A stretch of DNA of 64,000 nucleotides, from positions 62,001-126,000 of the forward strand of contig NZ_JAHVAI010000011.1 in the NCBI RefSeq assembly GCF_019264375.1. The letters are read 5' to 3'. The first letter of the stretch is position 1. Every line of letters starts with the position of its first letter. The position numbers and the translations under genes were made by a program. Shown in pieces: positions 22,886 to 25,731 of this stretch. Origin of the DNA: Sedimentimonas flavescens (GTDB lineage: Bacteria; Pseudomonadota; Alphaproteobacteria; Rhodobacterales; Rhodobacteraceae). The notes beneath the pieces were generated by a model. The model was given only the letters and a program-made list of their open reading frames with translations. It was not told the DNA's origin and made no database searches.

Positions 22886-23950
22886 TCAGACCGCACCGGC
22901 CTCGATCAGCTTGCGCGCGATCCCGGCATAGGCATCAGATGCCGCACCCTCGCCCGTCGCAACCGGCTGCCCGGCATCCCCCGCGAGGCGCACATCGAGG
23001 TCAAGCGGCAACTCGCCCAGGTAGGGCAGGCCAAGACGCTCGGCTTCGGCGCCAACGCCGCCGTGGCCGAACAGATGCGCCTCGTGGCCGCAATTGGGGC
23101 AGACATAGGTCGACATGTTCTCGATCAGCCCAATGACCGGCGTGCCGAGGCGGCGGAACATGTCGAGCGCCTTCTTGGCATCCAGCAGCGCCACGTCCTG
23201 CGGGGTCGAAACGACAAGAGCCCCATCAAGCCGCGTCTTCTGGCACAGCGTCAGCTGGATATCGCCCGTCCCCGGCGGCAGGTCGATGATCAGCACGTCG
23301 AGCGGGCCGTAGTGATCCCAGGCCACCTGCCCCAGCATCTGCTGCAACGCGCCCATCAGCATCGGGCCGCGCCAGATCACCGCCTCATCCTCTTTCAGCA
23401 TCAGGCCAATCGACATCACCACAACGCCGTGCGCCAGAAGCGGCAGGATCGTCTTGCCATCGGGCGAGGCCGGGCGCTTGTTCACACCCATCATCCGAGG
23501 CTGGCTTGGCCCATAGATATCGGCATCCAGAAGCCCCACGCGCTTGCCCGCGCGCGCAAGCGCCACCGCGAGGTTCGACGAGACGGTCGATTTGCCGACG
23601 CCGCCCTTGCCGGACCCGACGGCGATGATATGGCGCACCCCCTCAACCGCCTGAGGACCGGCCTGCGGCGTCGGGTGCTGGCCAATCTTGGGACCCGCCC
23701 CCATCCCCTTCGCGGGGCCAGAGGGAACCACGACCGTCAGGCTCTCGACACCGTCGAGCGCGCGTACGGCGGCCTCGATCGCGGGCTTCGCCGCCGACAA
23801 CTCGGCCTCCGAGGCACCCTCAAGGACGAAGCGGACGATTCCCCCTTGCACCGCAAGCGCGCGCACAAGATCACGCGACACCGGATCACTACCAGAGGGC
23901 ATTTCCACGCCTCGAAGCGCTTTGAGGACCGATTCCTTGCTCAGGGACAT
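22886..23950 (-). CDS. mrp: Mrp/ApbC-type iron-sulfur cluster carrier ATPase
   Basis: Mrp/NBP35-family P-loop ATPases load [4Fe-4S] clusters onto apo-proteins in the cytoplasm. From the ATG at 23950 (GGAGAAAACT upstream) the 354-residue protein has an N-terminal MIP18/DUF59-like domain (about 1-75), a Pro/Gly-rich linker, the deviant Walker [21 protein letters not shown] near residue 113, [16 protein letters not shown] and the cluster-binding CPNCG near residue 282. Upstream in-frame codons to 24082 lack a ribosome-binding site. It is divergent from the DUF1127 gene across 260 bp. Confidence 0.95.
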
Positions 23951-24096
23951 AGTTTTCTCCTGTCGATTTCGCGGCGACTGTGGCGCTTTTGCCGCGCGCT
24001 GCAAGAGGGGACGGCAATTAATGCAAACAAAATGCGCAATATGACGCAGGGTGAAGTGAAGATCGGCCGGAAAATTGAGCAATAAAGGTCATGCAT

Positions 24097-24146
24097 TTTC
24101 TGCATGGCAGAAATGCTCTCGCCAACCATTGTGCAGGTGCAGCATT
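24097..24146. promoter_or_regulatory. Palindromic CTGC-N3-GCAG site upstream of the DUF1127 gene
   Basis: TTTCTGC-ATG-GCAGAAA (24097-24113) is a perfect palindrome and contains CTGC-N3-GCAG, the sequence bound by PhaR in Paracoccus. A second TGC-rich stretch, TGTGCAGGTGCAGCATT (24130-24146), resembles the one in the phaC start region. Both lie in the 260-bp space between the divergent mrp and DUF1127 genes. Assignment to PhaR is inference. I could not define a sigma-factor promoter here. Confidence 0.45.
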
Positions 24147-24210
24147 AGCGCCATCTTGATCCCAACAGCGGCACTGGACCGCGACACGACATCAAGAAGG
24201 TTAGCAGAAA

Positions 24211-24414
24211 ATGGCACTGGCACAGGACATTCGGATCATGGAAACGGGCGTGGCACGCCTGTTCTCTGGGTTCTCGGAGGCTCTGGCCCGCCGCAAGGTC
24301 TATCGTCAGACCCTGCGTGAGCTGAAAGGGCTTTCGAGCCGCGAACTCGACGATCTGGGCATTCATCGCTCGATGATCACCCGCATCGCCATGGAAGCGG
24401 CCTACGGCAAGTAA
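24211..24414 (+). CDS. DUF1127 small protein (CcaF1-like)
   Basis: This 67-residue protein has the C-terminal DUF1127 segment (LRELKGLSSRELDDLGIHRS, then MITRIAMEAAYGK), an Arg-rich helical domain. In R. sphaeroides the DUF1127 protein CcaF1 (RSP_6037) binds RNA and is co-transcribed with the CcsR1-4 small RNAs that follow it. The same arrangement is seen here, with the first Cuckoo hairpin starting 11 bp after the stop. It is probably stress-induced by analogy. It has no membrane segment or signal peptide. Confidence 0.88.
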   Translation: MALAQDIRIMETGVARLFSGFSEALARRKVYRQTLRELKGLSSRELDDLGIHRSMITRIAMEAAYGK

Positions 24415-24424
24415 CACGTTTCCA

Positions 24425-24489
24425 GAGGCCCCTCCTCCTCCCTGGGCCTCGGAACTTGGCGGCACCCACCTCCTCCCTCGGGTGTCGCC
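24425..24489 (+). ncRNA. Cuckoo/CcsR-like small RNA unit 1 (hairpins 1 and 2)
   Basis: Hairpin 1 has a 7-bp stem GAGGCCC/GGGCCTC (24425-24431, 24444-24450). Hairpin 2 has a 10-bp stem with one G-U pair (24458-24467, 24480-24489). Both carry 12-nt loops containing CCTCCTCCC (loops 24432-24443 and 24468-24479). Seven bases separate them. Two consecutive CCUCCUCCC-loop hairpins are the defining layout of Cuckoo RNAs. The loop sequence is complementary to GGAGG Shine-Dalgarno sequences. A loop-motif-free hairpin (CCGGC 24497-24501 with GCCGG 24520-24524) follows. Confidence 0.85.
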
Positions 24490-24535
24490 TGAAATACCGG
24501 CCTCGGACCAGATGGTCATGCCGGATGCCGATGCG

Positions 24536-24605
24536 AAGGCCCCTCCTCCTCCCTGGGCCTTTGTAGAGAAGGCGGCGGCCCCCTCCTCCTCCCTGGGGCC
24601 GCCGC
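24536..24605 (+). ncRNA. Cuckoo/CcsR-like small RNA unit 2 (hairpins 3 and 4)
   Basis: Hairpin 3 pairs AAGGCCC with GGGCCTT (24536-24542, 24555-24561). Hairpin 4 has a perfect 11-bp stem (24572-24582, 24595-24605). Both have the same loop, CTCCTCCTCCCT. The stems differ from those of unit 1 but keep pairing, so the structure is conserved rather than the stem sequence. A GCCC-TTCG-GGGC tetraloop hairpin (24629-24640) sits in the 47-nt space before unit 3. Confidence 0.85.
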
Positions 24606-24652
24606 ACTTACTCAGCGGCAAGAAACACGCCCTTCGGGGCAGAGACGCGAAA

Positions 24653-24716
24653 GGCCCTTCCTCCTCCCTGGGCCGATCGCTTGGGCGGCGCCCCTCCTCC
24701 TCCCTGGGGCGCCGCC
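24653..24716 (+). ncRNA. Cuckoo/CcsR-like small RNA unit 3 (hairpins 5 and 6)
   Basis: Hairpin 5 has a short GGCCC/GGGCC stem (24653-24657, 24670-24674) and the loop TTCCTCCTCCCT. Hairpin 6 has a perfect 11-bp stem (24684-24694, 24706-24716) with an 11-nt loop, TCCTCCTCCCT. The leader GACGCGAAAGG matches GATGCGAAGG before unit 2, which supports duplication of a complete unit. Confidence 0.85.
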
Positions 24717-24725
24717 ACAAGAATA

Positions 24726-24793
24726 CCGGGTCCTTCCTCCTCCCTGGACCCGGCTGCGGCGCCGCCCTCCTCCTCCTCCCTGAGGGATGCGCC
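24726..24793 (+). ncRNA. Cuckoo/CcsR-like small RNA unit 4 (hairpins 7 and 8)
   Basis: Hairpin 7 pairs CCGGGTCC with GGACCCGG (24726-24733, 24746-24753) around TTCCTCCTCCCT. Hairpin 8 pairs 24758-24769 with 24782-24793, apart from a 2x2 internal loop, around CTCCTCCTCCCT. Four bases separate the two. The unit is preceded by AATACCGG, also found after unit 1 (24494-24500). Confidence 0.82.
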
Positions 24794-24803
24794 AGGATAC
24801 CGA

Positions 24804-24881
24804 CGGCCCCTCCTCCTCCCTGGGCCGATCGGAAGGTAGACGGCGAGCCCCTCCTCCTCCCTGGGCCCGCCGTTTTCTTTT
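24804..24881 (+). ncRNA. Cuckoo/CcsR-like small RNA unit 5 (hairpins 9 and 10) ending in the array terminator
   Basis: Hairpin 9 pairs CGGCCC with GGGCCG (24804-24809, 24822-24827). Hairpin 10 pairs 24841-24850 with 24863-24872 with one A-C mismatch. Both loops are CTCCTCCTCCCT. Hairpin 10 is the only one followed directly by a T-rich tract (TTTTCTTTT, 24873-24881), so it doubles as the intrinsic terminator of the locus. Internal hairpins have no T-run, which suggests one long precursor cut into units. Confidence 0.85.
24841..24881 (+). terminator. Intrinsic terminator of the DUF1127/Cuckoo RNA transcript
   Basis: The 10-bp stem of hairpin 10 (24841-24850 with 24863-24872) is followed by TTTTCTTTT. 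It ends about 50 bp before the rlmJ start and separates the sRNA transcript from rlmJ. Confidence 0.8.
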
Positions 24882-24933
24882 GCGGCTTGCCTGTCGGGGG
24901 CGCGCGGGGCATCAGGGGGGCAAAGGGGGTGCC

Positions 24934-25731
24934 ATGCTTTCCTATCAACACAGCTACCACGCCGGAAATCTGGCCGACGTCCACAAGCACGCGCTGATGG
25001 CGGCGATGCTTGATTACATGACGCGCAAGGACAAACCGCTGAGCTACCTCGAGACCCATTCGGGCCGCGGGCTCTACGCGCTGGACGCGGCCGAGGCCGT
25101 CAAGACCGGCGAAGCCGCGCAAGGCATCGAGCGGATCGCGCGTCTGAACTGGTTTGCCCCCGATCATCCCTATGCCCGCGCCCTCGCGGCGGTGCGCGCC
25201 GCGCATGGCGCGCGCGCCTATCCGGGCTCGCCCCTGCTTGCGGCAACCCTGCTGCGCCCGATCGACTCGATCCAGCTATGCGAGCTACACCCGCAGGAAT
25301 TCGCGGCCCTGCGCGCGGCGATGGAGTCCCATGGCGGCGTCTTTCATCAGAAGGACGGGCTGCAAATGGCACTGGCGCTGGCCCCGCCTACCCCGCGCCG
25401 CGGCGTCATACTGATCGACCCCTCGTGGGAGGTGAAATCCGATTACGAGGCGATCCCCAAGCTGATCGGCCAGGTCGCGCGCAAATGGAACGTCGGCGTC
25501 ATCGCGCTCTGGTATCCGATCCTCGCCCCGAGCGTTACCGCCAGTGACGCGCAGCGCGCCATGGTGCGCGGCCTGCGCGCCAGCCACCCCGAGGCGCTGA
25601 TCTCAGAGGTCCGCTTTCCGCCCGCGCGTGAAGGCCATGGCATGATCGGTTCGGGCATGTTCGTGCTGAACCCGCCCTGGGGGCTGGAGGACGAAGCGCA
25701 AAGGCTCGGCCGTCTCTTCGCGAAACTCTGA
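24934..25731 (+). CDS. rlmJ: 23S rRNA (adenine-2030 N6)-methyltransferase RlmJ
   Basis: RlmJ uses S-adenosylmethionine to methylate A2030 of 23S rRNA. From the ATG at 24934 (AGGGGG upstream) the 265-residue protein begins MLSYQHSYHAGNLADVHKHA, the N-terminal signature of the family. It has LETHSGRGLYALD (SAM site) near residue 40 and LIDPSWEVKSDYEAIP, where E. coli RlmJ has the catalytic DPPY. The Ser-Trp variant there appears to be a lineage difference. It ends with GSGMFVLNPPWGLE. Confidence 0.93.
   Translation: MLSYQHSYHAGNLADVHKHALMAAMLDYMTRKDKPLSYLETHSGRGLYALDAAEAVKTGEAAQGIERIARLNWFAPDHPYARALAAVRAAHGARAYPGSPLLAATLLRPIDSIQLCELHPQEFAALRAAMESHGGVFHQKDGLQMALALAPPTPRRGVILIDPSWEVKSDYEAIPKLIGQVARKWNVGVIALWYPILAPSVTASDAQRAMVRGLRASHPEALISEVRFPPAREGHGMIGSGMFVLNPPWGLEDEAQRLGRLFAKL

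Follow-up and report, generated by a model that had tools for sequence, protein, structure and literature searches.

The window, by which we mean the whole 64-kb stretch of DNA analyzed here, carries a CcsR-type locus (cuckoo RNA, CIN1), an already described kind, in which a DUF1127 gene of 67 aa, the counterpart of ccaF1 (24211–24414, + strand; Pfam PF06568, E 1.3e-13), is followed by ten hairpins presenting the same anti-Shine-Dalgarno loop. This identity, proposed in a first-pass annotation, was upheld: the loops, the two-hairpin units, and the place behind a DUF1127 gene are those of CcsR1-4. The anatomy of the locus, the covariation of its stems, its homology to the Rhodobacter sphaeroides locus, and a conserved upstream region were all observed. 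We consider it likely that the locus yields a stress-induced precursor that would be cut into two-hairpin RNAs masking Shine-Dalgarno sequences.

Ten hairpins with one loop sequence

The nonamer CCTCCTCCC has ten exact copies in the window, all on the + strand and spanning 24434–24861, while dinucleotide shuffles of the window contained 0.90 copies on average and at least ten in 0 of 100 cases. Across the whole genome (3,384,463 bases, 62 contigs) it occurs 26 times, ten of them in the array. In local folds and in the whole-array fold alike, the 9-mer was wholly unpaired in 10 of 10 hairpin loops, as the first-pass annotation had described, and its loop length of 11–12 nt was also recovered, nine hairpins having loops of 12 nt and one of 11 nt in the whole-array fold. 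At the other 16 CCTCCTCCC sites of the genome, stem scores were 10 or less in 14 and reached 14 and 15 in two, on a scale where window hairpins range from 17 to 30; given these weak stems, a second array or solitary cuckoo hairpins at those sites were ruled out.

Only one strand of the array folds better than expected (+ strand, z -8.0, 0 of 100 shuffles as good; − strand, z -1.28, 13 of 100 as good). The pairing total of the stems' own 5' and 3' arms was 230 vs 155 +/- 13 for re-dealt 3' arms, and re-dealing arms among the ten hairpins reached 230 in 1 of 100,000 deals. Using a gap-free, unselected alignment of the ten window hairpins, 78 of 100 cells pair and nine of ten base pairs show two-sided changes. 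The covariation score of this alignment, 0.464 vs 0.190 in shuffles, was reached by 0 of 500 shuffles and dropped to at most 0.184 when the pairing partner was slid; further pair types were the weakest covariation measure, their value being reached by 23 of 500 shuffles. Among 547 distinct hairpins from 64 related arrays, the mean score fell from 21.6 for own arms to 12.6 once arms were exchanged between hairpins of one array. The earlier claim of conserved loops over covarying stems thus stands, on the arm deals and the two-sided changes.

Open frames cross the array on both strands, as they would if it were a coding or DNA-level repeat, whether through a proline-rich frame, a minus strand rich in G, or a frame of 353 aa on that strand. 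However, six of the nine spacings between motifs are not divisible by three, Pfam recognizes nothing in the minus-strand frame, folding beyond the shuffle level is confined to the + strand, and the stems covary. On the strength of the spacings, the strand-specific folding, and the covariation we reject such a reading, to which we give next to no credence. The 353-aa open frame itself (24145–25206, − strand) spans the whole array and is probably a chance product of G+C-rich repeats.

The hairpins can be grouped into five units on the + strand: unit 1 (24420–24489; hairpin 1, 24420–24454; hairpin 2, 24458–24489), unit 2 (24532–24613; hairpin 3, 24532–24565; hairpin 4, 24566–24613), unit 3 (24647–24720; hairpin 5, 24647–24680; hairpin 6, 24681–24720), unit 4 (24726–24793; hairpin 7, 24726–24753; hairpin 8, 24758–24793), and unit 5 (24800–24881; hairpin 9, 24800–24832; hairpin 10, 24833–24880 including outer pairs). 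This division is the one that the first-pass annotation had made. Folded locally, the second member was the more stable in five of five pairs. The centre-to-centre spacings of the ten motifs (35, 76, 40, 75, 36, 40, 36, 40, and 41) do not set off 7+8 and 9+10, whose pairing follows from stem type. The 4–13 nt first given for the gaps inside pairs depend on how far the stems are taken to extend, and the whole-array fold gives 0–4 nt. The same fold places two hairpins lacking the motif in the long spacers, at 24497–24524 and 24629–24640.

From the end of the DUF1127 gene to the first 9-mer is 19 nt. At the other end, hairpin 10 runs into the T-run TTTTCTTTT (24873–24881) and probably doubles as a transcription terminator. 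A generic terminator scan, restricted to loops of 3–8 nt, did not list hairpin 10. Across related arrays, TTTT lies no more than 41 nt past the last motif in 84 of 121 vs 26 of 956 internal motifs, so the last anti-Shine-Dalgarno hairpin often seems to serve as a terminator too. The locus is flanked by a divergent Mrp-type ATPase gene (~22886–23950; Pfam E 1.1e-94) upstream of the DUF1127 gene and by rlmJ (24934–25731; Pfam E 5.2e-50) downstream of the array. Divergent mrp was found upstream in 64 of 73 related loci with enough flank and rlmJ within 700 nt downstream in 43 of 115 related arrays; the upstream side is therefore the better conserved. The nearest named DUF1127 protein, 99% identical, is from Sinirhodobacter sp. 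WL0062, in a listing from which records of the own genome were possibly left out.

Covariance models and array size among relatives

Scanned at gathering level, Rfam gave no match in the window. In E-value mode, Rfam CcsR1 (RF02791) matched units 1, 2, 3, and 5 at 39.7, 55.2, 40.9, and 40.4 bits, respectively (E 1.2e-12 to 4.5e-8). All window units miss the CcsR1 gathering cutoff of 65.3 bits, and because the best reaches 55.2 bits, the array is not filed as RF02791 itself. Rfam ar14 (RF02344) matched hairpins 5–7 (24641–24757) at 55.6 bits (E 3.1e-9), short of its cutoff of 58.8. For a positive control of the Rfam models, 15 of 71 named relative loci were scanned. Loci of Cereibacter johrii (L107) and Luteovulum azotoformans (L105), behind DUF1127 and each holding eight motifs, the number expected for CcsR1-4, scored 106.2 bits with CcsR1 and so lie above the cutoff, as do two Gemmobacter loci (L110 and L111; 75.4 and 73.2 bits); the other 11 of the 15 fell below it. 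The ar14 cutoff was reached in five of the 15 (L101, L102, L110, L111, and L115).

A covariance model (R1) of the eight units of C. johrii and L. azotoformans, whose structure holds the pairs of the second hairpin only (11 pairs), matched units 1, 2, 3, and 5 at 45.5, 67.8, 54.7, and 56.7 bits, respectively; apart from these, the best scores were 12.8 bits on the opposite strand of the array and 12.1 bits elsewhere. Hence the comparison with CcsR units that had been suggested at the outset came out in favor of the identity for four units, unit 4 (hairpins 7+8) being missed by both R1 and Rfam CcsR1. A one-hairpin model (R2) drew on 40 hairpins of named relatives, out of 119 that had passed a filter for 5 of 6 pairs, and pairing measured on these rows is biased upward. 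R2 matched ten of ten window hairpins (E 3.8e-10 to 0.001, against 0.11 for the best other match), including the two of unit 4 at 36.3 and 34.1 bits.

To have five units, or ten hairpins, had seemed remarkable in the first reading but proved ordinary. At least one pair of 9-mers 16–46 nt apart was present in 216 of 295 genomes drawn from the family and, within the same genus, 17 of 18 genomes had such pairs, the exception (G306) being 84% complete; a reversed-pattern control for this survey was confounded, with CCCTCCTCC overlapping the same loops. Pattern-found and DUF1127-found loci together yielded 123 distinct arrays with at least three motifs, a set that is not random since motif-rich loci were picked deliberately. 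These hold 3–26 motifs, 8 being the commonest number (24 arrays), followed by 10 (19 arrays), while among the 71 named DUF1127-found loci, with motifs counted anywhere in the locus, ten was commonest (14 loci). The longest array, in G165 (L018 = L069; the latter at G165:C1:331500-339500), has 26 exact motifs and lies deep inside a 1.3-Mb contig. In L069, stems and spacings recur every three hairpins, with a period of ~140 nt.

The repeat unit was gauged by stem similarity between hairpins at lags 1–4. Where an array had at least six motifs, similarity peaked at lag 4 in 40 cases, lag 2 in 34, lag 3 in 20, and lag 1 in 7. Lag 2 ranked top in L039, L055, and L065, lag 3 in L068, L070, L140, and the 26-motif L018 (0.82), and lag 4 in L071; the window array had lag 4 narrowly above lag 2 (0.63 vs 0.60), and in L050 (16 motifs) lags 2 and 4 were nearly level (0.52 and 0.51). 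The growing unit is therefore often, though not always, a pair. Unit number would vary through duplication and probably adjusts dose.

The upstream box and the DUF1127 gene

Upstream of the DUF1127 gene lies a palindromic box, ATGCATTTTCTGCATGGCAGAAATG (24091–24115, + strand), a candidate site for a LysR-type activator that fits T-N11-A and resembles reported LsrB and VtlR sites. It is followed by a promoter candidate, TTGTGC-N17-CATCTT (24129–24157, + strand), a form of the TTGTGC-N16-18-[CT]ATnTT conserved upstream of arrays, an element that by its sequence may belong to RpoH or to another sigma factor; a generic sigma-70 scan found no promoter upstream of the window array. ATGC-N7-GCAT was found upstream of 104 of 120 related arrays (base-shuffle mean 0.52), TTGTGC stood 37 or 38 nt past the box start in 92 of 121 arrays, and the full promoter-like element occurred in 91 of 120 upstream regions and 0 shuffled ones, all of these counts coming from related sequences and so not being independent. 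With no more than two mismatches, the VtlR motif described in the available text of PMC12595884 matched 82 of the 120 regions upstream of arrays and 0 of 120 once-shuffled ones. The window region differs from that motif by three mismatches, a level also reached by one shuffled region.

The strict box occurs at two sites in this genome, both before DUF1127 genes. The second (G000:C1:411801-411825, − strand; locus L228) precedes a DUF1127 gene of 62 aa (Pfam E 1.9e-13) that has no array, next to a divergent frame that we take to be ruvC-like. A second site of the L228 type is also found in G300 and, with an altered spacer, in G304, and in G311, from another family, the box again precedes a DUF1127 gene (Pfam E 1.5e-8). 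Strict boxes were present in 9 of 21 genomes searched, which speaks against a universal role; two matches (G301:C4 and G315:C7) had no DUF1127 gene in view, and at the main array of 7 of 17 same-genus genomes ATGC-N7-GCAT was absent while TTGTGC was kept. The shared box suggests a regulator of the LsrB/VtlR type. Among frames of at least 130 aa around trxB, inspection by eye showed no LysR gene in the arrangement of Brucella vtlR given in the accessible part of PMC12595884. A limited literature search found no paper treating both CcaF1 and VtlR.

The DUF1127 gene usually accompanies the hairpins. A DUF1127 signature, defined by our own regular expression and checked against Pfam for a few loci only, lay no more than 330 nt upstream in 116 of 121 arrays with enough upstream sequence; many of the 121 were found via a DUF1127 query, and the fair figure comes from pattern-found loci with three or more motifs, where the gene is just before 63 of 67 (some genomes counted twice). 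This association would suit hairpins that chiefly bind or titrate a protein, whether the DUF1127 protein, Hfq, or another RNA-binding protein, as would the accounts, in the portions available, of CcaF1 binding RNA and taking part in CcsR maturation and of CcsR RNAs interacting with Hfq (PMC10253847, PMC8307010). Nevertheless, an exact anti-Shine-Dalgarno 9-mer is not obviously required of a protein site, and five arrays have no DUF1127 signature in the stretch examined, although the gene may sit elsewhere in the genome. We judge protein titration quite unlikely as the chief function.

Those five arrays have box and hairpins with no DUF1127 gene nearby. Three of them (L029, L073, and L074) are among the four remaining pattern-found loci of the 67; box and TTGTGC are retained there, and no such gene is seen in the 3–5 kb examined. 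Two more are from the same genus, L227 (= L243) of G297, with eight motifs, and L265 of G309, with nine; in these the box lies 142–147 nt and TTGTGC 104–109 nt before the first motif, and neither has a DUF1127 gene between box and motifs or elsewhere in the examined stretch. In L025, the fourth of the remaining pattern-found loci, the gene is placed after three hairpins rather than before them, and L117 was scored as lacking DUF1127 solely through the splitting of its array at a 261-nt gap. Within the stretches examined, hairpins and DUF1127 gene therefore seem separable. In G309, two motifs 38 nt apart with a loose box 93 nt upstream (L248; G309:C34:215819-215865), without TTGTGC or a DUF1127 gene in front, are perhaps a stand-alone two-hairpin RNA.

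Arrays without a gene in front also bear on whether the array merely protects and terminates the 3' end of the DUF1127 mRNA. Such a role would agree with the array's start directly behind the DUF1127 reading frame and with the T-run at its end. Yet stability requires stems rather than an invariant loop, ten hairpins far exceed the need, and some arrays have no such gene before them; we find this explanation very improbable.

Proposed function, candidate targets, and known systems

Stress induction, processing, and target repression, as we propose them for the CcsR-type locus, would carry over from R. sphaeroides and Sinorhizobium papers. In the text available from PMC10253847, the ccaF1 operon of R. 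sphaeroides has an RpoHI/RpoHII promoter, is processed by RNase E, and ends at a Rho-independent terminator, and CcsR1-4 derive from the ccaF1 3' UTR via RNase E; CcsR1-4 target flhR (PMC8307010, in part). For Sinorhizobium, the anti-Shine-Dalgarno loops of NfeR1 silenced an ntrB reporter, and silencing was lost once three motifs were mutated (PMC10746234, available portion). By analogy, a stress-controlled promoter would give one transcript containing the DUF1127 gene and the ten anti-Shine-Dalgarno hairpins and ended by hairpin 10, the 3' part of which would be cut, probably by RNase E aided by the DUF1127 protein, into two-hairpin RNAs of ~70–90 nt. Through their CCUCCUCCC loops these RNAs would then base-pair with many mRNAs at purine-rich Shine-Dalgarno sequences, reducing translation. 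The DUF1127 protein may in addition have RNA-independent roles, because other DUF1127 proteins act via the kinase PhoR (PMC12501420, as far as its accessible text goes).

Alternatively, the transcript could act uncut, as a decoy: a single RNA with ten mimics of the 16S tail would occupy numerous Shine-Dalgarno sequences, or the translation machinery, at the same time and slow translation globally under stress. All loops are identical, they presumably share CCUCC with the 16S 3' end, and a motif number as high as 26 in one relative would suit a dose effect. Spacers are kept between units, however, and are often A/T-rich, providing possible cut sites: ATAC occurs in 171 of 956 spacers vs 55.6 in shuffles, and ATAC, ATTC, or TTTC in 195 of 382 wide vs 107 of 574 narrow spacers, an excess that comes partly from length. 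In the window, ATACCG continues into hairpins 7 and 9 at their 5' ends, and longer spacers lie at 24490–24531 and 24614–24646. Such A/T-rich spacer words (ATAC) are possibly cleavage sites, and RNase E is reported to release separate CcsR RNAs from the R. sphaeroides transcript (PMC10253847, available portion). An uncut decoy is in our view unlikely, and the first-pass suggestion of a strong mRNA or ribosome sponge is not supported, nothing beyond complementarity speaking for it.

For the preferred reading, in which processed RNAs mask Shine-Dalgarno sequences, candidate targets were sought as GGGAGGAGG located 4–9 nt before ATG in 41 genomes, and 20 site stretches were examined. Full 9-mer complements elsewhere in this genome number 16, with only two positioned 4–9 nt before ATG, one of which precedes a 63-aa frame of doubtful reality; a third complement is 5 nt before the GTG of a 250-aa frame. 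Long perfect pairing to many mRNAs is therefore not evident, and shorter pairing would be needed. A pyruvate phosphate dikinase-type gene (G000:C61:89587-89603; L220) has GGGAGGAGG, the full loop complement, five nt before its ATG, as does its counterpart in G300 (L209). Leads from relatives were transketolase, RuBisCO large chain, a response regulator, and acetyl-CoA synthetase (weak, E 5.9e-4, under the cutoff), with six target-lead frames searched against Pfam and one of them (L206) falling in no family. Such sites may simply reflect the strong Shine-Dalgarno sequences of highly translated genes, and we do not call these leads targets. Recurrent GGGAGGAGGAGAGAGGATG in G302, G303, G305, and G308 was discarded as a target, being the minus strand of their own arrays.

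More broadly, and tentatively, we propose that CIN1 of Rhodobacteraceae is a copy-number-variable array (3–26 anti-Shine-Dalgarno hairpins, arising by two- or three-hairpin duplications) under a LysR-type activator of the LsrB/VtlR kind and a stress promoter, that the box marks other DUF1127 genes, so that DUF1127 proteins and hairpins make up one regulon, that gene and hairpins are separable, and that hairpin number determines the degree of translational repression during stress. The window contributes one further CcsR-type locus, a single unit longer than that of R. sphaeroides, and is not a record; of greater interest are the variation across the family and the box that its members share, both testable. 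Relative to the cited literature, in the parts available, the additions are arrays of up to 26 hairpins, the box with its promoter-like element, and five arrays without DUF1127. With loops kept exact over 3 to 26 copies, and with drifting stems and duplicating units, the family offers a natural dose series for studying multi-copy anti-Shine-Dalgarno RNAs. The box points to LsrB/VtlR-type proteins as regulators to test, and the roles of protein and RNA could be told apart in the arrays without a nearby DUF1127 gene, two of which belong to the same genus.

Compared with ccaF1-CcsR1-4 of Rhodobacter/Cereibacter sphaeroides, the window has the same order of a DUF1127 gene and then tandem two-hairpin units with CCUCCUCCC loops, an order that the close relative C. 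johrii also shows, with eight motifs and a score above the CcsR1 cutoff; unlike R. sphaeroides, with four units, the window has five. The cuckoo family (Reinkensmeier and Giegerich 2015, as cited in the accessible text of PMC10253847 and PMC4504443), in which short DUF1127 proteins linked with CcsR-like RNAs define the "CIN1 locus" (PMC10253847, in part), shares the invariant CCUCCUCCC loop, the variable stems, and the short DUF1127 protein nearby. Cuckoo RNAs are described with 2–4 hairpins per RNA (PMC4504443, available portion) and rhizobial members with two, three, and four (PMC3927594, likewise in part), in contrast to ten in one stretch in the window and up to 26 in relatives. The alpha-r14 sRNAs (NfeR1 of Sinorhizobium, RF02344) have the loop motif in common with the window, and the ar14 model matches hairpins 5–7. 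NfeR1 also has an LTTR site upstream, TGCA-N6-GCAT, that resembles the window's box (PMC10746234, as far as available), whereas alpha-r14 sRNAs are reported, in the text accessible, as three-hairpin RNAs with their own promoter, unlike the array described here.
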